From a virus: DNA of 20,044 nt. The DNA lies in the IMG/VR virus record IMGVR_UViG_3300006802_000807, positions 1 to 20,044 of that record. One strand, 5' to 3'. This document shows positions 7,788-20,044 of the stretch, one piece after another (within the stretch, counting starts at the first letter, position 1; each line of letters starts with the position of its first letter). The notes beneath the pieces are model-generated. The model worked only from the letters and a program-made list of their open reading frames with translations, was not told the origin of the DNA and made no database searches. A program made the position numbers and the translations under genes.

Positions 7788-8855
7788 ATGGCATTCGCAA
7801 AAGAAACTGCTTGGGGCAACCTCCCCAATGGCAACTTCTCCCCGACTATCTTTAGCAAACAAGCTCAGCTTGCTTTCCGTAAAGCTGCTGTTTGTAATGC
7901 TATTACTAACTCGGACTACATGGGTGAAATCTCGGCTCAGGGCGACACTGTTCGCATCATGAAAGAGCCGGATATCACTGTCAACACCCTTAAGCGTGGT
8001 ACTCAAATCTCCGCTCAAGACCTCGTTGACACCGACTTCCAGCTTGTCGTTGACAAAGCTAACTACTTTGCCTTCAAGATGGATGACATCGAAGAAGCTC
8101 ACTCGCACATTGACTTCATGCGCCTTGCCACTGATCGTGCCGCCTACAAGATGGCCGATAAGATGGACGAAGAAGTTCTCGGCTACCTGTCTGGCTATGC
8201 TGGCGGTGCTGGTTCGTGGGCTGTTAACACGACTGTCTCTGGCACTAAAGCTGACTCGGCTGCTGGTTCTGACGAACTTCTTGCTGCCAACAAGCTTGAC
8301 GCCACTGACTTCGGCAACCTGACTATTTCTGCTACTGCGACTGCTGGCGACTCGATTCCGCTTGCTCCTCGCTTTGGTGGCGCTACTGCCGCTTCGACTA
8401 CAACTGTTTCGCCGCTCTCGGTTATTGCTCGTATGGGCCGTCTCCTTGACCAGCGCAATGTTGATACTCGTGGCCGCTGGCTGGTTGTTGACCCGGTGTT
8501 CGTCGAGATGCTCAAAGACGAAGACAGCCGTATGCTGAATGCTGACTTCGGTGGTTCGGGCCTACAGAACGGTCTGATCCTTAACTCTCTGCATGGCTTC
8601 CGTGTCTATGTCTCGAACAATATGCCGTACCTCGGCACGGGTTCGGGTACTTCGGGCACTTCGGCTCAGAATGCTAACTACGGTGTTATCGTTGCTGGTC
8701 ATGACTCGGCTGTTGCTTCGGCTGAGCAACTGACCAAGACCGAAACCTACCGTGACCCGGATGGCTTCGCTGATATCGTTCGTGGTATGCACCTCTATGG
8801 CCGCAAGATTCTGCGTCCTGAGGCTCTTGTCACTGCGAACTACAACGCTGCCTAA
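7788..8855 (+). CDS. Major capsid protein
   Basis: This 355-residue protein follows the scaffold gene and has the composition of an HK97-fold shell protein. It opens with a short N-terminal arm (FAKETAWGNLPNGNFSP) and a helix. Segments such as YMGEISAQGDTVRIMKEPDI and DFQLVVDKANYFAFKMDDIEEAHSHIDFM look like an extended E-loop-type strand followed by the spine helix. A DRNVDTRGRWLVVDP-like region and a C-terminal LYGRKILRPEALV strand follow. It is the building block of the icosahedral head. The start has AAAGGAA about eight bases ahead. Its codons differ strongly from its neighbours: every arginine I checked is CGT or CGC with none AGA or AGG, Ser is often TCG, and C-ending codons prevail. That is a mark of very high expression. 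No prohead protease gene is visible nearby. Confidence 0.9.
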   Translation: MAFAKETAWGNLPNGNFSPTIFSKQAQLAFRKAAVCNAITNSDYMGEISAQGDTVRIMKEPDITVNTLKRGTQISAQDLVDTDFQLVVDKANYFAFKMDDIEEAHSHIDFMRLATDRAAYKMADKMDEEVLGYLSGYAGGAGSWAVNTTVSGTKADSAAGSDELLAANKLDATDFGNLTISATATAGDSIPLAPRFGGATAASTTTVSPLSVIARMGRLLDQRNVDTRGRWLVVDPVFVEMLKDEDSRMLNADFGGSGLQNGLILNSLHGFRVYVSNNMPYLGTGSGTSGTSAQNANYGVIVAGHDSAVASAEQLTKTETYRDPDGFADIVRGMHLYGRKILRPEALVTANYNAA

Positions 8856-8927: not shown

Positions 8928-9365
8928 ATGGCTATTACAACTGCTGTGTGTAACAGCTTCAAGCAAGAGCTTCTTGGGGGTGTTCATGATTTAGACACCG
9001 ATACAATAAAAGTTGCGTTAATTAAGGTATCACCAACTGGTGCATATAACGTAACTACGACTAACTACTCAGACGTTACAGATAATTCCGATGAAGCTGT
9101 AGGTGCTAACTATACTGCAGGCGGTAATACACTAACAGGTGCAGCTATTTCTTTAGACAGTTCTACTGCTACAGTCGATTATGACAATACCACATGGTCA
9201 TCTGTAACTGTTTCTGCTGATGGGTGTATCATTTATAACTCATCTAAATCCAATAGAGCTATAGCAATAGTTTCTTTTGGGTCTACTAAGAAGTCTATTA
9301 ATGGGGATTTTACAATTCAATTTCCCACAGCAGACGCAACTAACGCCATAATTCGTATTGCATAA
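8928..9365 (+). CDS. Small beta-rich virion protein, head decoration candidate (first of a pair)
   Basis: This is a 145-residue protein with AGGA nine bases before its ATG. The pattern is a helical opening (AVCNSFKQELLGGVHDL), then alternating short strands rich in Thr, Ser, Gly and Asn (DTIKVALIKVSPTGAYN, GGNTLTGAAISLDSSTATVDYDNTTW, GCIIYNSS). It ends in the strand FTIQFPTADATNAIIRIA. Proteins with this layout are frequent directly after the capsid gene in aquatic phages and are presumed to be virion surface or decoration proteins. The next gene shares the 'DS/DTFKVALT' strand and the terminal 'F-x-x-x-F-x-x-x-x-x-x-x-I-x-I-A' strand, so the two look like old duplicates. Exact role is unknown. 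Confidence 0.65.
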   Translation: MAITTAVCNSFKQELLGGVHDLDTDTIKVALIKVSPTGAYNVTTTNYSDVTDNSDEAVGANYTAGGNTLTGAAISLDSSTATVDYDNTTWSSVTVSADGCIIYNSSKSNRAIAIVSFGSTKKSINGDFTIQFPTADATNAIIRIA

Positions 9366-9376
9366 GGAGTGACAAA

Positions 9377-9787
9377 ATGGCAACGTTTAACAAATTCAAC
9401 TCATTCATTGAGTATGCTGTAGAGAGCGCAAACTTGGGGTCAGACTCCTTTAAAGTTGCGTTGACTAATACAGCACCATCTGCAGCTAACAGCTTACTTG
9501 CCGATATTACACAAGCAACTGGCGCACCTGCCAATCTTGACAGCGTAACAATTACTACAACTTCGTCTGCTCAGACAAGCGGTACGTACAAGTTGGTTCT
9601 TGCTGACAAAACAATGACAGCTTCTGGTACGGTAGGCCCGTTCCGTTATGTTGTTATTTATGATGATACAGTATCAGGTGATCCTCTAGTAGGTTACTAT
9701 GACTATGGTTCGTCTATTACTTTGAACTCTGGTGACAGCTTCACTGTTGATTTCGATGCAACTAACGGCTTTATCCAGATCGCATAA
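9377..9787 (+). CDS. Small beta-rich virion protein, head decoration candidate (second of a pair)
   Basis: This is a 136-residue protein with a strong ribosome site (AAGGAG). It opens with a helix (FNKFNSFIEYAVESANL), then DSFKVALTNTAPSAANSLLADITQ, a threonine-rich strand region (SVTITTTSSAQTSGTYKLVLADKTMTASG), FRYVVIYDDT and the final FTVDFDATNGFIQIA. Its order of elements parallels the preceding protein: helix, 'FKVAL', Gly-containing strands, 'YVVIYDDT' against 'GCIIYNSS', then the closing beta strand. The pair may occupy different positions on the capsid or form a mixed oligomer. No enzyme motif is present. Function is assigned only from position and fold type. Confidence 0.65.
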   Translation: MATFNKFNSFIEYAVESANLGSDSFKVALTNTAPSAANSLLADITQATGAPANLDSVTITTTSSAQTSGTYKLVLADKTMTASGTVGPFRYVVIYDDTVSGDPLVGYYDYGSSITLNSGDSFTVDFDATNGFIQIA

Positions 9788-9800
9788 GGAATAAGTACCT

Positions 9801-11450
9801 ATGGTCACCCTAGTTAATAGAGCACAAATGACTACCAGTACTACGGGTACAGGTACGATAACCTTGGGCAGTGCTTCCACTGGCTATCAAAATTTTGCTA
9901 CGGCTGGGGTGACTGATGGTGCTTCTGTGCGCTACCTCATTGAGGATGGCTCTGACTGGGAGATTGGCACAGGCACCTACACGGCGTCTGGCACCACCCT
10001 GACACGGACTGTCAGCGAGAGCAGCAATGCTGGCTCTGCCATTAACCTCAGTGGCTCTGCGATTGTTGCATTGACAGCAACTGCAGCAGATTTTAGTAGC
10101 GGTGGCGGCGGTGGTGGAACATACACTATTTCCGATAAGAGTACTGCTTATACTATTACATCTGCTGATGTTGGTACTGTTATTAGATTTACCACAGGCA
10201 CTGTGGATGCCACCCTCCCAGCAATTTCTGGGCTAACTACGGGTTTTTCTGTTAGCATTTGGAATGACGGCACTGGTACTATTAGTGTTAAACCTGACTC
10301 TGGTTTACCCGACTATATTGGTAGTAGCTTTAGCAATGGGTATACAAGCAGCGATCCGCTTTTGCTTAATAGAGGCACTGGCGTTACGCTTGTAAATAAT
10401 GGCACTAGTTGGGGTATAGCCAATGAAAAACCTTACGATTACTACCACCATAGCGTTGCAATAGGTGATGCTGCTAAAGCATATAACAATTTTACTACGG
10501 CTGTTGGTGTAAACTCTAATGCAGATGGGGTGTTTTCTACTGCTATTGGTAGTGGCAGTGGTGCTGGAACAGGGCCAATTTCATCAGGGTCTAGGTCGAT
10601 TGCACTGGGGGAATACGCATACACCAGTGGTGATACCGCCGTTGCAATGGCAAAATCAAGAGCATCAGGTGCTAATAGTTTTGCAGCAGCTATTAATGAT
10701 AATACCACTACTTATGGCGCTTCTGGTACTAACGCTGTAGCTATTGGGTATTTAGCAAAAGCAAGTGGCAATTACTCAACCGCTATTGGACGGGGTAGTG
10801 CAACAGGAACATCCTCTGTTGCTATTGGTGGTTTCCAATATGGTGCCGCTAGTGCAACAGGAACAGCCGCTGTTTGCATTGGTGGAAACTACTCTCTGTC
10901 AAACCCATCTGCGACAGGAAATGGTTCTATTGCGTTACATGATGGCTCCTCTGCAGGAGCACAAAACTCTATAGCTATTCAAGGTGCTAATACTACTATC
11001 TTTGGTCAGTTTGCTTATGCTGGTGGTGAGAGCGGCTCTACTGCTCAAACATCAATGTATGTTCTCAAACGAGGAACAACAGACGCTACTCCTAGTGCTT
11101 TGGTAACAGAACGAATTGCTGTTAACGCCTCCCCTAGCACCACAAACCAAATAGTTCTTCGCAACAACTCTGCCTATGCCTTCCACGGCACCATCGTGGC
11201 CCGTCAGCAGGCATCCGCTGGCACTGCATGTGCAGCATGGGAAGTAAAAGGTTTACTACGTAGAGAAGATTCTGCAGCTTCTACTACTTTGGTGAGTTCT
11301 ACCACAACCGTTATTGATAACACGCCATCTTGGGGCATGGCTTTGAGTGCAGACACGACTAACGGTGGTCTGGCTATTACCGTAACAGGCGCAGCATCCA
11401 CTAATATTCGGTGGGTAGCTACCATCAACACATCAGAAGTAGTGTATTAA
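9801..11450 (+). CDS. Trimeric fibre with YadA-like head repeats
   Basis: This 549-residue protein shows four parts. Residues 1-98 are an N-terminal module of the type shared by many phage fibres ([23 protein letters not shown]..., [19 protein letters not shown]). A GGGGGG hinge at 101-106 leads to a beta capping domain (107-210, [30 protein letters not shown]). Residues 217-395 hold about 12 S/A-x-A-I-G repeats such as SVAIG, STAIG and SIALG. The steps are mostly 13-20 residues with a frequent 14-residue step, the signature of the YadA head beta-roll that trimerises in bacterial adhesins. The last 100 residues are a conserved-type C-terminal domain ([20 protein letters not shown]... [18 protein letters not shown]). 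The ends look GC-richer than the repeat core, suggesting module exchange. A receptor-binding or capsid-surface fibre is likely. AAGGA lies ten bases before the start. Confidence 0.8.
10449..10985 (+). repeat. YadA-head-type repeat tract within the fibre gene
   Basis: About twelve degenerate protein repeats centre on A-I-G or variants at residues 218, 232, 246, 266, 279, 293, 312, 326, 339, 357, 376 and 390 of the fibre. Several steps are exactly 14 residues, the known length of the left-handed beta-roll turn of YadA heads. The DNA copies have diverged, so this is an old protein repeat and not a recent tandem duplication. Confidence 0.8.
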
Positions 11451-11972: not shown

Positions 11973-14126
11973 ATGGCAGTTTATTGGGTTGACCCCTACA
12001 TTGAAGCCTCTGTTGGGGGCATTCATGGTACAACCGATACGACTTCTCGTAGCGGCACCTATGCTGCGCCTTGGGCGTTGTCGGATATGTATGGAACATC
12101 CACTACAGGTAATGCTAATTTATCTGGTCTATCTGATGGAGATGAAATACGCTTTAAGGGTTTGTCTCAATCTTCTTATTTAATAGATGCGGGTTCCGAT
12201 TGGTATCCAGATAGTAATAATATTTCAAAAGCTACCGCCTTAAATAGTGCTACTACTTCAGCAATTAGTTCTTGGGGCAATGCTGGTTTAGTAGCAATGT
12301 TTGATACTACTGCTACAAACAAGTTTACTGTAGCAGACTCTGATGGCAATAAGCCTTTGCTCTTTGCTACTGTATACGTTGACAGCACCAGTACACCGTC
12401 TAGTTTTTTTCGTTCTTCGTCTGCTCCGCATACTGTTTTAAATGTTGGCCCACTTCGTGCTGAAGGTACTTCTTCTGCGAATGCAGCTTTGCAAATGTAT
12501 TTAGTTGATCCTCAATACTATATACCTAGCACTATTACAGGCAATCAATATTTTTGCCTTTATGATGACATTGGCATAAAAGTAACAGATGGATGGACAT
12601 CTTCTACAACAAGAGATGGATATACCCTTCTTCCTATTTATAGGTCTAGTCCTACTACTAGTATTACTTGGTATTTTAACCGCAATACAAATGCTAGTAA
12701 TGGGCCTGATACTTTATATGATATGCCTAGCACTTATTTTATTTTTCATAACAATGCTGGCAATAGTTATACATATGGAAGTATTTACATTTGTTCCGCA
12801 ATTGGCGGGTATCATTCTGGTTATACATACACACAACGTTTTGGTGGATTTCATATAAATGGGACTAGTTCTGGACAAGTTTTTGACTACACTGGATATT
12901 ATTATTATTCTGGAGCGGGTGGTGGAACTGCGGCTGCGTTGGGTGTTAATGGGTGCGAAATAAATAGTGGAAGTATTATGTACTACGGTATTCGTGGCTA
13001 CAAGAGATATGGTTCTACTACTTCTTCCGAATGGGCAACTAACAGATATAATAATGTTTTTACTTATTATTATCAGTACCAATTGCAACAATACTTAACT
13101 GATAATGGGAATTATTATCTTGGTACAAGTATGGCTTTTTACATGCTTGAAAGAGGTTTGATTCTTGGCTCTAGTTCTAGTTCAGCAACAATTAACGTTA
13201 ATCTTCTTAGTGGAGCGTATTTCTGGAAATATGGTCTGTATGGAGGCGGTTTATTTACTTCAACATTATCCACAATGATTCCAAGTTTTAGCGGAACAGT
13301 TTATAATTATGATGGTCCTGCATTGTCTAGTAGACTTTCGTATTCTGGTGAAGGGCCAGAGTATTTATACGAAGCACAATCTGTAGCGCCATACATGTCT
13401 AATCCAAAAATGAATCCAACAAGTTGGACAGATGGTATTGGTGCGGCTTGGATTAAAAACAATTCTAGCAGTGCTTTTAATACAAGTACAATAGCATCTC
13501 TTGGTATTCTTGATGTGGGAACAGGTGACTATACAACAGGTTCTTGCAAATTTAAAGTAGGCTCTGATTTAGATTTGTTTAGGTATAGTGAAACATCTGG
13601 CCCTGCTATTCAAACAAATCTGGTTATTCACACAAACAGTAACACAGCGGATGGTTTGCCTATTGGTATGGCATTAAGTACGGAAAAAACTAACTTAACG
13701 CATTCGCCTATGCTGTACTATAATGACTCAGATAAAAGTGGTGCACTTTGTTTTGTATCTAACGATCAGGCGGATAACGTAGTATTTAGACAAAGCCTTG
13801 AGATTCCTATTACTGGAGGGGCTTACACAAGCTCTAGTACTATTCGTTTAAAGGCTAGATTAGAAACATCGTCTAGCTGGACTAGTTCTCTGTATGTTAT
13901 TGGTGCATGGTATTATAACACTAGCAATGAGCCTACCTTCCAAACTATACAGAGTAGTTCAACTGCTGTGACAACTGCTACTGATTATACATACGATTTA
14001 GCCGCATCTTCTTTATACGATGCTGGAAATAATTATAGATTCCTTCGTTTTATTATTTACGTTACGAACAGAAATGATACTAATCAAAAACTATGGGTAC
14101 ATGAATTATCTGCAACCGTAGTATAA
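11973..14126 (+). CDS. Large Tyr/Ser/Thr-rich virion protein, tail fibre or spike candidate
   Basis: This is a 717-residue protein two bases after the previous stop; no clear ribosome site is seen, so coupling is likely. The first 65 residues (YWVDPYIEASVGGIHGTTDTTSRSGTYAAPWALSDM ... LSDGDEIRFKG) resemble the opening module of aquatic phage surface proteins, probably the attachment end. The middle (about 180-460) is unusually rich in tyrosine, serine, asparagine and glycine (DYTGYYYYSGAGGG, TYYYQYQLQQYL). This would suit a beta-helical or receptor-contacting surface. The last 250 residues are beta-rich with a carbohydrate-binding-like look (NVVFRQSLEIPITGG, STIRLKARLETSSSW, FLRFIIYVTNR). I see no catalytic motif of a known depolymerase. 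The DNA is richer in A and T than the flanking genes, with runs such as TTATTATTATT, suggesting transfer from another phage. Confidence 0.65.
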   Translation: MAVYWVDPYIEASVGGIHGTTDTTSRSGTYAAPWALSDMYGTSTTGNANLSGLSDGDEIRFKGLSQSSYLIDAGSDWYPDSNNISKATALNSATTSAISSWGNAGLVAMFDTTATNKFTVADSDGNKPLLFATVYVDSTSTPSSFFRSSSAPHTVLNVGPLRAEGTSSANAALQMYLVDPQYYIPSTITGNQYFCLYDDIGIKVTDGWTSSTTRDGYTLLPIYRSSPTTSITWYFNRNTNASNGPDTLYDMPSTYFIFHNNAGNSYTYGSIYICSAIGGYHSGYTYTQRFGGFHINGTSSGQVFDYTGYYYYSGAGGGTAAALGVNGCEINSGSIMYYGIRGYKRYGSTTSSEWATNRYNNVFTYYYQYQLQQYLTDNGNYYLGTSMAFYMLERGLILGSSSSSATINVNLLSGAYFWKYGLYGGGLFTSTLSTMIPSFSGTVYNYDGPALSSRLSYSGEGPEYLYEAQSVAPYMSNPKMNPTSWTDGIGAAWIKNNSSSAFNTSTIASLGILDVGTGDYTTGSCKFKVGSDLDLFRYSETSGPAIQTNLVIHTNSNTADGLPIGMALSTEKTNLTHSPMLYYNDSDKSGALCFVSNDQADNVVFRQSLEIPITGGAYTSSSTIRLKARLETSSSWTSSLYVIGAWYYNTSNEPTFQTIQSSSTAVTTATDYTYDLAASSLYDAGNNYRFLRFIIYVTNRNDTNQKLWVHELSATVV

Positions 14127-14136
14127 GAGGTAATAC

Positions 14137-16242
14137 ATGTTAGGTTTTTCACCATTAGCCTCTGCACCGCTCGGTGATAATGACGCTATTGACAGTGGGT
14201 CTTACAGCCTAACCTCCGGTACAGGGGCTTTTAGTCTTGCGGGACAGGATGCAGTACTTACGTCTACTGCAAATGTATCCTATAGTCTTACTTCAGATGT
14301 AGATACTTTTAGTCTTACAGGACAAAATGTAACACTTACCTATACACCAGTTTCTGAAGTAGCTACTTTAGTTTCCGGTACACTTGCGGTAGCATCTACT
14401 GGATTTGATTACGGCATATACCTTGATAGTGCTGGTTTTGGTAGTTTAAATATAGGTCCACTAAGTGCAGCTCAAGCACTTACATTAACTGCTGCCCAAG
14501 GTACTTTTGCACTTACGGGACAAGATGTAACCTTTACTGTTTCTGCAAGTTATACTCTTGCTGCTGATGCTGGTAGCTTTACTTTAACTGGACAAACTGT
14601 AGCAACTACAGCAAACTTAATTGTTGCGCTAGGCAATAGTAGCTTTACTTTAACGGGTCAGGCAACAGGATTAAACCAGTCTCTTAATGTTTTAGCTGAG
14701 CAAGGTTCATTTAGCCTAACTGGTCAAGTAGCAAACTTTACTAAAGTTCTGAATGTTACCGCTGATCAAGTTACATTTAGTCTTTCCGGCCAGACTGTTG
14801 CGCTAACGACAGACAACAATGTTGCTGCAGAATATGGTTCATTTAGTTTAGCAGGTCAAGCTGCAAACTTTACTAAAGACAATAGTATTGCTGCTGGTCA
14901 TGGTTCGTTTGTACTCACTGGACAAGACGCACTAAAGAATATATCTGAAACCGCTGGACTTGTATCTTTCAGTGTAAGTGGGCAGGCAGTAACACTTACT
15001 AAAAATCTTAATGTAGCAGTAGACAATGCAAGCTATACTGTAACAGGTCAAAGCGTAACGCTTGGTTTAAGTTATAGTATAACATCAAATACTGGTAGCT
15101 TTACTTTAACAGGTCAAGCTGCATCAAAAGGAATTGCTGAAGCTGTTGAGTATGCATCTTTCAGTGTTTCTGGACAAAGTGTATCGTTTACTAAAGTCCT
15201 TAATGTTACTCTTGATCAAGGTACGTTTACGCTAACTGGTCAAGATGCAGCACGAAATATTCCACTAAAGACTAATACAGGTTACTACGCACTTAGTGGA
15301 AAAGATGCAGGCTCTGTAAAAGAAATTAGCATTATTTCATCTAGGGGTATCTTTACCCTGTCTGGGCAAAGTGCTGTAGTTGGTATTTCTAAACGTCTTT
15401 CTGTAGATGCTGGGGCATACAGCATAACAGGCTATGACGTAAGATTTAGTATATCTTTAGCGGCTAATACAGGCACGTACACACTCACTGCTCCTGCAAC
15501 AAACCTAACTAAATACCTAAGAATATCGCTTGGACTAGGTTCGTTTACTTTTGAAGGTCAGGATGCATTTAAAGCAATCTCCGAGCTTGCTGGTCTAGTA
15601 TCCTTTACAGTAAATGGGAAAAATACAACACTAACATCTGTACGTTCTTTTGCCGCAGATTCAGGTAGCTTTACTGTTACGGGTCAAGATGCAGCTACGC
15701 TAAAAGAAGTTAAAGTTGTTGCCACATCTGGTAGCTATACGGTAGCTGAACAAGATGTAACATTTGGTGTTGAACTATCTATTATACCTAACACTACAGA
15801 ATATGTATTTACAGGTCAAGCAACATCCTTTAAAATTAACAGAGCACTCTCTGCTGATTATGAAACATTCACAGTTACGGGCCAAGATGTAACTGTACGT
15901 GTTAAAAGAAAAGTATCTAGTAACGCTGGTGTATTTGTACTAACTGGACAGGACGTTAGTTTTCTTAATACGGTTAGTTTGGCTGCTGCCAATACAAGCT
16001 TTACTCTAACAGGTCAAGATATAGGTATTGGAACTGCTACAACACTGTCTAGTGCAGCACTACACATAAATACAAATAGCGTCTCAATTGTAGAGAACGT
16101 AGGTGTATATACACCAGTATACACAAACATACTGTATCTAACACCAGACGATGAAAGAAACACAGTTTATATTTCGCCTAAAGAAAATCATACAGTTGTG
16201 CTGACACCACAAGACAGACGATCAACAGTATACGCCGCATAA
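14137..16242 (+). CDS. Repeat-built virion surface protein with 26 GSFTLTGQ-type repeats
   Basis: This is a 701-residue protein with AAGAGGT ahead of the start. After a short opening (MLGFSPLASAPLGDN) it consists almost wholly of a repeat with the core G-S-F-T-L-T-G-Q-D-A/V. The G-Q (or equivalent) stands at residues 36, 62, 128, 152 and then every 20 or 22 residues to 626. Between cores lies an 'x-L-x-V-x-A-x-x' strand, so each unit is a two-strand beta element. The last 40 residues hold three roughly ten-residue units (LYLTPDDERN, TVYISPKENH, TVVLTPQDRR) closing in STVYAA, which look like a separate C-terminal cap. No enzyme or membrane signal is seen. Proteins of this style recur in aquatic phages next to the fibre-tail adaptor. 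A long fibre or capsid appendage is the likely role, with binding target unknown. Confidence 0.75.
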   Translation: MLGFSPLASAPLGDNDAIDSGSYSLTSGTGAFSLAGQDAVLTSTANVSYSLTSDVDTFSLTGQNVTLTYTPVSEVATLVSGTLAVASTGFDYGIYLDSAGFGSLNIGPLSAAQALTLTAAQGTFALTGQDVTFTVSASYTLAADAGSFTLTGQTVATTANLIVALGNSSFTLTGQATGLNQSLNVLAEQGSFSLTGQVANFTKVLNVTADQVTFSLSGQTVALTTDNNVAAEYGSFSLAGQAANFTKDNSIAAGHGSFVLTGQDALKNISETAGLVSFSVSGQAVTLTKNLNVAVDNASYTVTGQSVTLGLSYSITSNTGSFTLTGQAASKGIAEAVEYASFSVSGQSVSFTKVLNVTLDQGTFTLTGQDAARNIPLKTNTGYYALSGKDAGSVKEISIISSRGIFTLSGQSAVVGISKRLSVDAGAYSITGYDVRFSISLAANTGTYTLTAPATNLTKYLRISLGLGSFTFEGQDAFKAISELAGLVSFTVNGKNTTLTSVRSFAADSGSFTVTGQDAATLKEVKVVATSGSYTVAEQDVTFGVELSIIPNTTEYVFTGQATSFKINRALSADYETFTVTGQDVTVRVKRKVSSNAGVFVLTGQDVSFLNTVSLAAANTSFTLTGQDIGIGTATTLSSAALHINTNSVSIVENVGVYTPVYTNILYLTPDDERNTVYISPKENHTVVLTPQDRRSTVYAA
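14224..16029 (+). repeat. 26-copy protein repeat, period 20-22 residues
   Basis: The repeat covers residues 30-631 of the protein. Intervals between successive G-Q positions are 26, 66 and 24 at the start and then 22 or 20 throughout. All are even, and the 66-residue interval equals three periods and holds degenerate sequence. Copies with altered core include GYDVRF at 432, APATNL at 452, GKNTTL at 494 and EQDVTF at 538. DNA copies differ at many synonymous sites. Confidence 0.85.
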
Positions 16243-16255
16243 TAAGGAAGATAAA

Positions 16256-16573
16256 ATGTCATATAGATGGCCCGACAAAGACCCTGATGAGATTGTAGAT
16301 TACAGTGTAGACTGGTCACGCTTACTAAGGGACGACACGTTATCTGCCACTACGTGGTATATCTATGATGGTGAAGGTGTCAAGACTGAGGTTACTGGTG
16401 CTTCCGTAGTGAATGGCTTACAGTTCGTAACTGGTACTATCTCTGGTCAAGTTGCTACTGCACGTTTTTCTCTAGGCACAAACAACGTGAGATATACAAT
16501 TAACTGTAAGATCATCTCTGGTAGCGGCCTTGTGTATGAACGCTCTATCTTCCTGCGTATGAAGGAGAAGTAA
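16256..16573 (+). CDS. Fibre-tail adaptor candidate
   Basis: This is a 105-residue protein with AAGGAAG before the ATG. The opening WPDKDPDEIVDYSVDWSRLLRDDTLSATTWYIYDG matches the pattern of small phage proteins described as fibre-tail adaptors. Those share 'K-D-P-D-E-V/I-x-D-Y-x-x-D-W', 'D-T-I/L-x-x-x-x-W' and a later Ig-like strand set ending in a 'G-x-x-Y/F-E-R-S/T-I-x-L-x-V/M' strand. Here the end is GLVYERSIFLRMKEK. The usual central 'W-L-S-G-G' is replaced by RFSLGTNNVRYTINCKI. It would link a fibre to the tail or head surface. It lies between the repeat protein and the head-tail adaptor, which agrees with a joining role. Confidence 0.6.
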   Translation: MSYRWPDKDPDEIVDYSVDWSRLLRDDTLSATTWYIYDGEGVKTEVTGASVVNGLQFVTGTISGQVATARFSLGTNNVRYTINCKIISGSGLVYERSIFLRMKEK

Positions 16574-16575
16574 TA

Positions 16576-17268
16576 ATGCCTGCGTATAACTACTTAGGTC
16601 TTGTCAATGACGTAAACAGAAGGCTCAATGAGGTAGAGTTAACTTCGGCTAACTTTGATGGAGCTACTGGTTACTACAGTTTTGCTAAGGATGCAGTCAA
16701 CTCCGCTGTACGACATATCAATCAGGAAGAGTTTGAGTGGCCGTGGAACCATGTTGAGGAAACAGAGGTTTTAGTTCCGGGTGTTGTGCGTTACAGCTAT
16801 CCCTATGATGCCAAGACCATTAACTTCAACACCTTTCGTATCCGGCAAGACGATGTTAATGCTAACGAAACACGTAAATTAAAAGCCATGAACTACGAAG
16901 AATATATTGACAAATACGTGTACAGCGAGTATAACTCTAGTAATAGTATAAGAAGTATGCCCTCATACGTTGTGCGTACTCCTAGCAGAGAGCTTATCTT
17001 GGTCCCTTCGCCGGATAAAGCCTATGAAGTAGTGTATGAATACTACACATACAGCTTTACTCTTGAGAAGGCTACTGACATCCCGACCATCCCAGAGCCT
17101 TACAGACACGTTATTGTAGACGGTGCTATGTACTACGTTTACCAGTTCCGTGGGGATATGCAGGCAGCTAACTTTGCTCAGGATAAGTTTGAATCTGGTA
17201 TCAAGAACTTACGTAGTTTGCACATTAATAGAACCGAATACCTTAAAGATACAAGAGTTCATTTCTAA
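16576..17268 (+). CDS. Head-tail adaptor (tail tubular A-like / phage adaptor protein)
   Basis: This 230-residue protein begins at an ATG preceded by GGAGAAG. The first part is helical (YLGLVNDVNRRLNEVEL, YSFAKDAVNSAVRHINQEEFEWPWN), followed by a beta part (EVLVPGVVRYSYPYDAKTINFNTFRI, YEVVYEYYTYSFTL). It ends in long helices (IPEPYRHVIVDGAMYYVYQFRGDMQAANFAQDKFESGIKNLRSL). This order and length fit the adaptor ring that binds under the portal in short-tailed phages, comparable with T7 gp11 or the adaptor of Escherichia phage SU10. 'PYRHVIVDGAMYY' with a following Ala-rich helix is typical. Its stop overlaps the next ATG (TAATG), pairing it with the nozzle candidate. Exact family is judged by eye. 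Confidence 0.75.
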   Translation: MPAYNYLGLVNDVNRRLNEVELTSANFDGATGYYSFAKDAVNSAVRHINQEEFEWPWNHVEETEVLVPGVVRYSYPYDAKTINFNTFRIRQDDVNANETRKLKAMNYEEYIDKYVYSEYNSSNSIRSMPSYVVRTPSRELILVPSPDKAYEVVYEYYTYSFTLEKATDIPTIPEPYRHVIVDGAMYYVYQFRGDMQAANFAQDKFESGIKNLRSLHINRTEYLKDTRVHF

Positions 17269-18806
17269 TGGCTACAGCATGGCAGACATTTCCTATTGAG
17301 TTTAAGGGGGGCTTGATTTCTAGCCTCTCCCCTTTACAGCAGGGTATTCAAGCTGTTGGTTCTGCCTCTATCCTACAAAACTTTGAGCCGTCTAAAGAGG
17401 GTGGCTACGCAAAGATTAGAGGGTATGATAAGTTTGATAGTAATGCTATCCCCGGCACTGAGCCTGTACTTGGGGTTAAAGTAGTTGCAGCGGGTGAGGT
17501 CTTAGCTATCCGTAGTGATGGTACTTACAGTAAAGTATATAAAAGTACGGGCATAGGTTGGACATTAAAAGCTACGGCTGCTCTAAACGGAGCTAAAGTA
17601 CGGTTCACTGAGTTAAACTTTGGTACAGGCCATGTTATCCTTGGCGTAGACAGCGTTAACTATCCCTTTGTGTATGATGATGTTGCAGATACTGTTACTT
17701 ATCTTACAACCCCGGCGGATGTTGAGGGCGCTTCTCACATAGCTGTATTCAAGACTACCACCTTTTACGCTAAAGAGACTAGTCTTTACTTTACTGCGCC
17801 CTCTACCTACAGCGACTTTACTGCTGCTAATGGTGGTGGTGTTATTAATGTAGGCAACCAGATCACAGGCTTAGCGGTATTCCGTGACCAACTGATTGTG
17901 TTTAGCAGAAACAGCATCAAGCGTATTACTGGTAGTTCAATCGCTGATTTTGTTGTTGCTCCTATTACGGATCGCATTGGCTGCATTAATGGCGATACTA
18001 TTCAAGAAGTAGGCGGCGACATTATGTATGTTGCTCCTGATGGTATTAGGCTCTTAAGTGCAACAGATCGCATTGGTGACTTTGGCTTAGATATTCCTTC
18101 TGATACTATTGCTAAAGACGCCTATAACTTCCTGCAGTCTGCTACAAACTTTAGCTCTATTGTTTTACGTGAGAAAGCCCAGTACCGTATCTTTGCATAT
18201 GTACCGTCTGAGCAGCAGAGTTCTGCTAAAGGGCTTCTTGCTACTAAGTTTTCTAGCCAAGGTGCAGAGTCTATTGCTTGGGCTACTACAAAAGGTATTA
18301 AAGCATACTGCAGCGATAGTAAGTATACAGCAGGCTATGACGAGACAACCATATTTGCTAACGACGATGGGTATGTCTATGAGTTAGACACAGGCTCTTC
18401 TTTTGATGGGGATGTCATTGAGGCTATCTATGAGTCTCCTTATATGGCTATTACTGACCCGCAAGCACGTAAGACGGTATACAAACTCATCTTATATGCT
18501 GATCCTTTAGGGACTATGTCTCTTGATGTAAACCTTAAGTTTGATTTTGGCAAGGCTACCAATACAGACGTTATTCAGCCTACTACTTTTAACATCACAA
18601 GTACTGGTAGTGCTATATTTCTCTACGGCTCTACTAATGCAGTGTTTGGCTCTGCTACTTTTGGGGGCGTATTAGATAAACAATACGCTAGAAACATTAT
18701 AGGCTCTGGTAAAACTGTAGCTATGCGTATTGAAGATAGTTCAACTAACCCTTCATTTACTCTGGACACGGCGATTCTAGAGTTTAGACAGAACGATAGA
18801 CAATAA
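17268..18806 (+). CDS. Tail nozzle / DNA-stabilisation protein candidate
   Basis: This 512-residue protein overlaps the adaptor stop by one base. It begins PIEFKGGLISSLSPLQQGIQAVGSASILQNFEPSKEGGYAKIRGYDKFD. This is a hallmark opening of nozzle-type tail proteins, in which a G-G-L segment leads to 'N-F-x-P-x-x-x-G-G-Y-x-x-x-x-G-Y'. The rest is a beta-propeller-like series. Conserved-looking pieces are ITGLAVFRDQLIVFSRNSIKRITGSS (about 200-225), GCINGDTIQEVGGDIMYVAPDGIRLLSATDRIGD (about 240-272) and a C-terminal beta domain. By analogy with P22 gp10 and T7 gp12 it forms the lower tail tube that holds in the packaged DNA and docks fibres. Frame, length and adjacency to the adaptor all agree. Confidence 0.75.
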   Translation: MATAWQTFPIEFKGGLISSLSPLQQGIQAVGSASILQNFEPSKEGGYAKIRGYDKFDSNAIPGTEPVLGVKVVAAGEVLAIRSDGTYSKVYKSTGIGWTLKATAALNGAKVRFTELNFGTGHVILGVDSVNYPFVYDDVADTVTYLTTPADVEGASHIAVFKTTTFYAKETSLYFTAPSTYSDFTAANGGGVINVGNQITGLAVFRDQLIVFSRNSIKRITGSSIADFVVAPITDRIGCINGDTIQEVGGDIMYVAPDGIRLLSATDRIGDFGLDIPSDTIAKDAYNFLQSATNFSSIVLREKAQYRIFAYVPSEQQSSAKGLLATKFSSQGAESIAWATTKGIKAYCSDSKYTAGYDETTIFANDDGYVYELDTGSSFDGDVIEAIYESPYMAITDPQARKTVYKLILYADPLGTMSLDVNLKFDFGKATNTDVIQPTTFNITSTGSAIFLYGSTNAVFGSATFGGVLDKQYARNIIGSGKTVAMRIEDSSTNPSFTLDTAILEFRQNDRQ

Positions 18807-18817
18807 GGACTCATATT

Positions 18818-20044
18818 ATGACAGGCTACACACGCCGAGACGAAGATAATAGTATTGCTACCGGCAAAGTTATTGATGCTTCTGATTTTAATGAAGAGTA
18901 CGACGCTATTGAAGGTGCATTCAATGCTACTGAAGGCCACAAACATGACGGGTCTTCAGGAGAAGGTGCACCTATTACTAAGGTTGGTCCGGGCCAAGAC
19001 GTTGTGGTGTCTACTTCTGCAGTCGCTCCAAAGACTACAAACACACTTGATCTTGGTACAAGCTCTGTTCAGTATAAAGACGCCTTCTTTGACGGCACTG
19101 TAACAACAGACATTCTTACTGTAGATGAGACTTCTACCTTTGCTGGTGACATCACGGCTTCTGCTAATCTTTCTATAGGTGGAAACCTGACAGTTACAGG
19201 CAATGCTACTATTAATGGCAATCTGACCTTTGGCGAGGCAGGCACAGATACTGTAGCCTTTAGTGCAGACATTAACAGTAACATCATTCCTGATGTAAAC
19301 AATGAATATGACTTAGGTAGCTCTACACAAGAGTGGCGTGACCTTTATGTAGACGGTACAGCTAACATTGACAGCCTTGTAGCTGATACTGCTGAGATTA
19401 ACGCTGGTACTATTGATGGCACTGTTATTGGTGGTACATCTGCTTCTGATATTACTGGCACTACTATTGAAGCAACTACAGGCTTTACAGGTAATCTTAC
19501 AGGTAACGTAACTGGTGACCTTGATGGTAATGCTTCGACAGCTACTGCATTAGAAACTAAACGTACTATTGAGCTGTCTGGTGACGTTACAGCTACGGGT
19601 GTTGACTTTGATGGTACTGAGAACATTACTCTTACTACTACTATTGAGCCTAACTCTGTAGAACTAGGCACAGACACTACAGGAGACTACGTAGCTACTA
19701 TTGATGGTACTGCTGATCAGATTGAAGTAACAGGAAGTGGCTCTGAGAGTGCCGCTGTTACTGTTGGTCTGACTAATAGTGTAACCATTACAAACGATCT
19801 TAGTGTTGGTGATAATCTTACTGTTGGTGATAATCTTACTGTTGGTGGTAATCTTACTGTTAGTGGTGATTTTACTGTATCAGGCACAACTACTACAGTT
19901 AATACTGAAACTATTAATCTCGCTGATAACCAGATTGTTCTTAACTCTAATTACGATGGCGATGATCCTACACAGAATGGTGGCATTGAGATTGAACGTG
20001 GCACAGAACCTAATAAAACTCTTGTGTGGGATGAAGCTGCTGAC
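18818..20044 (+). CDS. Tail fibre protein, N-terminal 409 residues (runs off the window)
   Basis: The frame opens at the ATG at 18818 (AAGGA nine bases ahead) and has no stop up to the window end. The N terminus (GYTRRDEDNSIATGKVIDASDFNEEYDAIEGAFNATEGHKHDGSSGEGAPI) is a widespread phage fibre anchor. Its GHKHDG at 40-45 contains an H-x-H of the kind that coordinates metal in fibre trimers. Two similar units follow: TLDLGTSSVQYKDAFFDGT (about 76-94) and EYDLGSSTQEWRDLYVDGT (about 163-181). A TGNLTGNVTGDLDGNASTAT stretch (about 224-243), tandem L-T-V-G-D-N hexapeptides at 328-351 and VNTETINLADNQIVLNS come next. This shaft resembles fibres known from cyanophages and other aquatic phages. The receptor-binding tip lies outside the window. 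Confidence 0.8.
   Translation, partial: MTGYTRRDEDNSIATGKVIDASDFNEEYDAIEGAFNATEGHKHDGSSGEGAPITKVGPGQDVVVSTSAVAPKTTNTLDLGTSSVQYKDAFFDGTVTTDILTVDETSTFAGDITASANLSIGGNLTVTGNATINGNLTFGEAGTDTVAFSADINSNIIPDVNNEYDLGSSTQEWRDLYVDGTANIDSLVADTAEINAGTIDGTVIGGTSASDITGTTIEATTGFTGNLTGNVTGDLDGNASTATALETKRTIELSGDVTATGVDFDGTENITLTTTIEPNSVELGTDTTGDYVATIDGTADQIEVTGSGSESAAVTVGLTNSVTITNDLSVGDNLTVGDNLTVGGNLTVSGDFTVSGTTTTVNTETINLADNQIVLNSNYDGDDPTQNGGIEIERGTEPNKTLVWDEAAD
19799..19870 (+). repeat. Tandem 18-base repeat in the fibre shaft
   Basis: Four successive 18-base units encode L-S-V-G-D-N, L-T-V-G-D-N, L-T-V-G-G-N and L-T-V-S-G-D, followed by a partial F-T-V-S-G copy. The first three are nearly identical at DNA level (CTTACTGTTGGTGATAAT type), which points to recent duplication by slippage. 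Copy-number change would lengthen or shorten the shaft by six residues without breaking the frame. Confidence 0.8.

Follow-up and report, generated by a model that had tools for sequence, protein, structure and literature searches.

A protein of tandem repeats encoded in a 20,044-nucleotide stretch of viral DNA (hereafter the window) is, with a probability of roughly 60%, a modular rod-like virion appendage and most likely part of the tail-fibre apparatus. In the model we put forward, a constant N-terminal peptide would be followed by a variable number of ~22-residue all-beta units, with rod length set by repeat number; the C-terminal segment would dock on a small Ig-like adaptor of the Gp77/BppU_N type, the product of the adjoining downstream gene, and this adaptor would tie the rod to tail or neck; and repeat family and tip would be swapped by recombination. 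Within the repeat family, changes in unit length would mostly be by two residues, since the continuous beta strands predicted for each unit must keep their inward/outward alternation. The model draws directly on sequence, repeats, spacing statistics, synteny, covariation of C-terminus and adaptor, and copy-number variation, and extends from these to fold, virion location, docking and a function in adsorption. Phage fibre and adhesion modules are already known; the repeat family is without an entry in the libraries searched.

The window is a linear 20 kb IMG/VR fragment. Capsid and adaptor protein similarity indicates that the phage is an HMO-2011-type podophage standing closest to the cultured Roseobacter CRP phages: the capsid protein is 57-72% identical to its counterparts in CRP phages and HMO-2011, and the head-tail adaptor up to 73%. 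This assignment uses capsid and tail genes, the DNA polymerase lying outside the window. Gene order (Table 1) starts with terminase and portal, which were named by inspecting their sequences and by comparing gene order with CRP-207. Then come the coat gene, a pair of phrog_644 genes, a fibre gene of YadA type and the gene for a 717-aa protein, just ahead of the repeat gene. On its other side lie, in turn, the genes for the Gp77 fibre-tail adaptor and the SU10-type adaptor, a tail/connector gene and a tail-fibre-like gene truncated by the end of the contig. The adjacent phrog_644 proteins (8928-9365 and 9377-9787) belong to a family that also occurs upstream of many relatives of the repeat cassette, and a small ORF (2372-2821) that by eye looks like a zinc-finger/HNH protein separates the gene for the large terminase from that for the portal. 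The 717-aa protein had no match in Pfam or PHROG, and close relatives were found only in L072 and L001. Searches for tRNAs and Rfam families returned no matches.

Table 1. Features of the window around the repeat gene (positions in the window; aa, residues of the repeat protein where a range is given).
Feature	Position	Strand	Evidence or remark
P22-like major capsid protein	7788..8855	+	phrog_267
Fibre-like protein, YadA head repeats	9801..11450	+	PF05658 E 2.2e-14
717-aa protein, same cassette	11973..14126	+	no family match
Repeat gene (putative rod), 701 aa, 26 GSFTLTGQ-type units	14137..16242	+	open frame from ATG
Constant N-terminal cap MLGFSPLASAPLGD, aa 1-14	14137..14178	+	N-terminal in proteins of at least five repeat types
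Repeat array, aa 22-628, units of 20, 22, 24 or 26 residues	14200..16020	+	
Insert, aa 64-121, between units 2 and 3	14326..14499	+	shared with L072; low pLDDT
C-terminal tip ...NTVYISPKENHTVVLTPQDRRSTVYAA, non-Trp class	16021..16239	+	class co-occurring with adaptor gene
Gp77-type small fibre-tail adaptor, 105 aa, directly downstream	16256..16573	+	PF23148 E 8e-14
Head-tail adaptor (SU10 adaptor family)	16576..17268	+	PF24175 E 6.5e-20; phrog_10775 tail protein
Tail/connector structural protein	17268..18806	+	phrog_5107 (labelled amidase), phrog_3287 virion structural, weak Hc3
Tail-fibre-like protein, runs off contig	18818..20044	+	phrog_356, phrog_25747, phrog_7389

All 26 repeat positions put forward in the sequence-only reading were verified in the 701-aa ORF, 21 of them with a literal GQ and five degenerate (388 GK, 432 GY, 452 AP, 494 GK and 538 EQ), and all 25 intervals between them are indeed even. 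The same 26 units were recovered by a position-specific scan, which across 37 cluster representatives yielded 621 sites, against 4 in shuffled sequence at the same threshold. No tandem array was found at the DNA level in the gene, so the repeat in the window exists at the protein level only. Searches of Pfam, PHROG, NCBIfam and PDB sequences (the last by protein and profile search) assigned the protein to no family, tail-fibre families included, and the FTLTGQ motif was not found in the literature. The single interval of 66 residues had been read as three 22-residue periods hiding two degraded units; this was rejected, with no G at residues 84 and 106 and no unit in register. The interval is an insert rather than a run of degraded units, because these glycines are missing, because relative L072 has a similar stretch (...DYGIY...) in an interval likewise 66 residues long, and because, among the inner parts of the 701-aa structural model, it is the most poorly ordered (pLDDT < 50 at 72-113).

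Relatives were gathered by pattern searches of viral contigs, a single pattern returning more than 300 related stretches in IMG/VR; one scan of genome contigs returned only a weak locus, in a Hyphomicrobium MAG. Spacing was analyzed in 82 non-redundant repeat proteins. Counted over unique units, even spacings comprised 18 (5 units), 20 (264), 22 (803), 24 (24) and 26 residues (3), and odd spacings 19 (1), 21 (29), 23 (13) and 25 (1), the latter amounting to 44 of 1143 units and leaving 96% even. All intervals are even in 53 of the 82 proteins and at least one is odd in 29, with L082 reaching 8 odd intervals out of 16. A strong bias of length variation to steps of two is thus supported for the GSFTLTGQ-type family, and the expectation that homologues share even spacing, pursued with a repeat profile and a viral-contig search, holds as a tendency. 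A strict even-spacing rule is excluded by the odd intervals and by the sibling repeats of 21 and 23 residues described below.

The pattern within units offers one source for this bias. Hydrophobic residues alternate at positions 1, 3, 7, 9, 11 and then 16 and 18 of 22-residue units; 20- and 24-residue units retain the alternation with one position fewer or more, and 21- and 23-residue units disrupt it. Because even-length units keep the alternation and odd ones do not, strand register appears to be a real bias on length, though not a law, so that the limit proposed from the window survives as a preference and falls as a requirement. Alternatively, a few 20- and 22-residue unit types may have been copied about, with even spacing due to descent and no selection for strand register. 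The I-S/T-E type signature common to 123 of the 264 unique 20-residue units places many of them in one lineage, so that part of the parity bias is descent, and a set of ITTGQP repeats holds exactly 23 residues in 413 of 420 units, as descent would simply produce. As a full account, descent is nevertheless rather unlikely: 141 of the 20-residue units lack the signature, units of 24, 26 and 18 residues exist too, the alternation follows parity, and the ratio of 20- to 21-residue units (264:29 among unique units) still stands at 63:13 when units are collapsed at 50% identity (sign test 5e-9, with residual relatedness remaining).

The constant N-terminal peptide, MLGFSPLA..PLAD, is shared well beyond the GSFTLTGQ-type proteins, and the window cap aligned to CRP-207 gp50 with a score 8.6 s.d. 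above shuffles. Other repeats in capped siblings include SVSATG (about 20 residues, CRP-207), SISGSATVSGQG (20 residues, L183), SASGQTATG (21 residues, L175 and relatives) and ITTGQP (23 residues). Since the 21- and 23-residue repeats sit on the same cap, and have the same downstream adaptor as the GSFTLTGQ-type proteins, an even period is not needed by the capped architecture; nor are steps of two general whatever the base period, the seven deviations in the 23-residue family being 24. Found in L206, L240 and further loci with 8-27 units almost strictly of 23 residues, the ITTGQP proteins form what is apparently a second, unnamed repeat family on this cap. Relatives sharing 94-95% identity in their downstream DNA differ in copy number, with 34, 23, 22 and 16 units. 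One array (L077:3741-5414) is interrupted by a tail-fibre-type domain (phrog_30742, E 7e-21), an insertion seen among the relatives only in L077. On a 183-kb phage contig, L040:3945-7799 encodes a 1285-aa protein in which unrelated N- and C-terminal regions enclose 26 units.

Structure prediction for the monomer agrees with the beta strands postulated for the repeats. AlphaFold2 models of the 701-aa protein (mean pLDDT 58.5, pTM 0.50) and of L036 (pLDDT 62, pTM 0.66) are all-beta and without helix, at low confidence (pLDDT 58-62), so the predicted all-beta fold, and with it the consecutive-strand arrangement, is a lead and not a result. The best part of the 701-aa model consists of 19-residue strands and 3-residue turns, and a Foldseek structure search gave no significant PDB match, to solenoids or to other folds; both observations leave an antiparallel meander, a stacked sandwich or a trimeric beta-spiral shaft as a tentative alternative to a monomeric parallel beta-solenoid. 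Against it, most of the weak Foldseek matches are to parallel beta-helices or solenoids (RsaA, EtpA, P22 tailspike and a beta-helical antifreeze protein), and direct coupling analysis, which is confounded by tandem duplication, peaked at separations of i to i+22 and i+44 with no clear hairpin diagonal. The best structure matches in BFVD are uncharacterized phage proteins or unnamed entries.

The adaptor encoded downstream of the repeat gene is 64% identical to CRP-207 gp49. By its Pfam name, Gp77 is the fibre-tail adaptor of podophage GP4, to which a paper cited in PMC11784390 ascribes three fibre types. Linker and appendage are separate genes, with a BppU_N-like linker domain adjoining the appendage gene both in the window (PF23148) and in six relatives, whose downstream genes contain PF10651 above cut-off in a domain search. 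Of 80 non-redundant relatives with sufficient flanking sequence, 40 have a Gp77/BppU_N gene immediately after the repeat gene; the other half, with no recognized adaptor in that position, count against the appendage model. Presence of the adaptor nevertheless covaries with the class of C-terminus: it accompanies 34 of 36 capped proteins with non-Trp ends versus 1 of 21 whose ends, for example ETWTEQ or PNWTEI, are rich in Trp (Fisher 4e-12, a value that overstates independence, relatedness not having been removed). This rule was borne out by families that had played no part in deriving it, the adaptor being present for 33 of 34 non-Trp proteins in a later set with other repeat types and absent for the one Trp-ended member, the ITTGQP protein L248. 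Over the first 250 residues proteins L123 and L124 match at 94.8% identity, yet their C-termini differ, and only L123 has the adaptor; separate switches are visible in L124 and L118 versus L123, L024 versus L060, L091 versus L079, and L248. Because C-terminus class and adaptor presence switch together, the evidence points to the C-terminus as the probable docking end for the adaptor.

Synteny bears on where in the virion such a rod would be placed. A tail-fibre-assembly chaperone lies directly upstream in 28 of 77 relatives with enough flank, and the cassette neighbours, as judged from flanking-gene domains (PF10651 and PF16778 among them) and PHROG tallies of tail-fibre and chaperone neighbours, comprise the tail-fibre, chaperone and adaptor genes of a tail-fibre module. 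In the cultured phages CRP-207, CRP-603 and CRP-345 the same slot holds a repeat protein, whereas HMO-2011, CRP-738, CRP-1, CRP-2 and CRP-212, among the HMO-2011-type phages inspected, have neither the slot nor a Gp77 match. In cultured phage CRP-6, which has a tape-measure gene, the repeat/adaptor pair lies between portal and capsid genes. CRP-6 gp58 (L191:5954-7723), a 2OG-Fe(II) oxygenase-like protein (phrog_61), is encoded between a tail-fibre chaperone and the repeat gene, a position that hints at a possible modification of fibre or host glycans.

Some of these arrangements count against a tail-fibre role. In the window the gene upstream encodes the unrecognized 717-aa protein and not a chaperone, and in many phages the cassette is found among head/connector genes, where a neck or head fibre fits too. 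The repeat protein could then be a neck whisker or head fibre, with the adaptor forming a ring around the portal/adaptor region: several siphophage-like loci have the cassette between portal and protease or capsid genes, and the window cassette adjoins connector genes. In baseplate models of TP901-1 the BppU N-terminal domains form a 12-mer ring, and a similar ring of BppU N-terminal-like domains has been modelled for its neck passage protein (PMC10747895). We regard this placement as unlikely, the frequent upstream neighbours being tail-fibre assembly chaperones and tail-fibre genes and the adaptor family taking its name from a fibre-tail adaptor, and we retain the tail-fibre apparatus as the favored location.

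The arrangement recalls known devices while differing from each. In the BppU/FibU/NPS devices of Gram-positive siphophages (TP901-1, 80alpha), a BppU_N-like domain links a receptor- or carbohydrate-binding appendage to tail or neck; here, in contrast, the BppU_N-like domain has a gene of its own, of about 107 aa, and the appendage consists of tandem repeats. The hypothetical proteins CRP-207 gp50, CRP-603 gp57 and CRP-345 gp55 occupy, like the window gene, the slot before the Gp77 adaptor, and gp50 clearly shares the window cap and weakly its C-terminal tip, but these proteins are 223-287 aa long and carry the repeat SVSATG..ISE at about 20-residue spacing rather than GSFTLTGQ. CRP-6 gp57 and the ITTGQP-type proteins have a similar cap and a BppU_N-like adaptor directly downstream; they differ from the window protein in their 23-residue repeats, in a phage that has a tape-measure gene and in a cassette placed between portal and capsid genes. 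Related repeats of about 18-22 residues also occur in EBPR siphovirus 2 gp72 and in the repeat protein of Manatee Spring podovirus MW202742, both without the MLGFSPLA cap; those of gp72 precede a C-terminal domain common to Azospirillum phage Cd and Caulobacter phage Sansa.

The chances are about even that these proteins represent a plug-and-play appendage common to podophages and siphophages, combining a constant N-terminal peptide, swappable and seemingly unrelated 20-23-residue beta repeats of tunable copy number and a C-terminal plug that would co-switch with a separately encoded BppU_N/Gp77 ring. If this is true, rod chemistry, rod length and docking would be exchanged independently. The proteins described here form a structural family, widespread in abundant marine phages and apparently without a name, in which limits set by strand register on insertions and deletions in beta-repeat proteins can be tested. 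The family would also provide a natural series of rods alike except for repeat number, repeat type or docking end, through which the contributions of repeat identity, length and docking to adsorption may be tested, and the cassette is present in the cultured phages CRP-207, CRP-603, CRP-345 and CRP-6.
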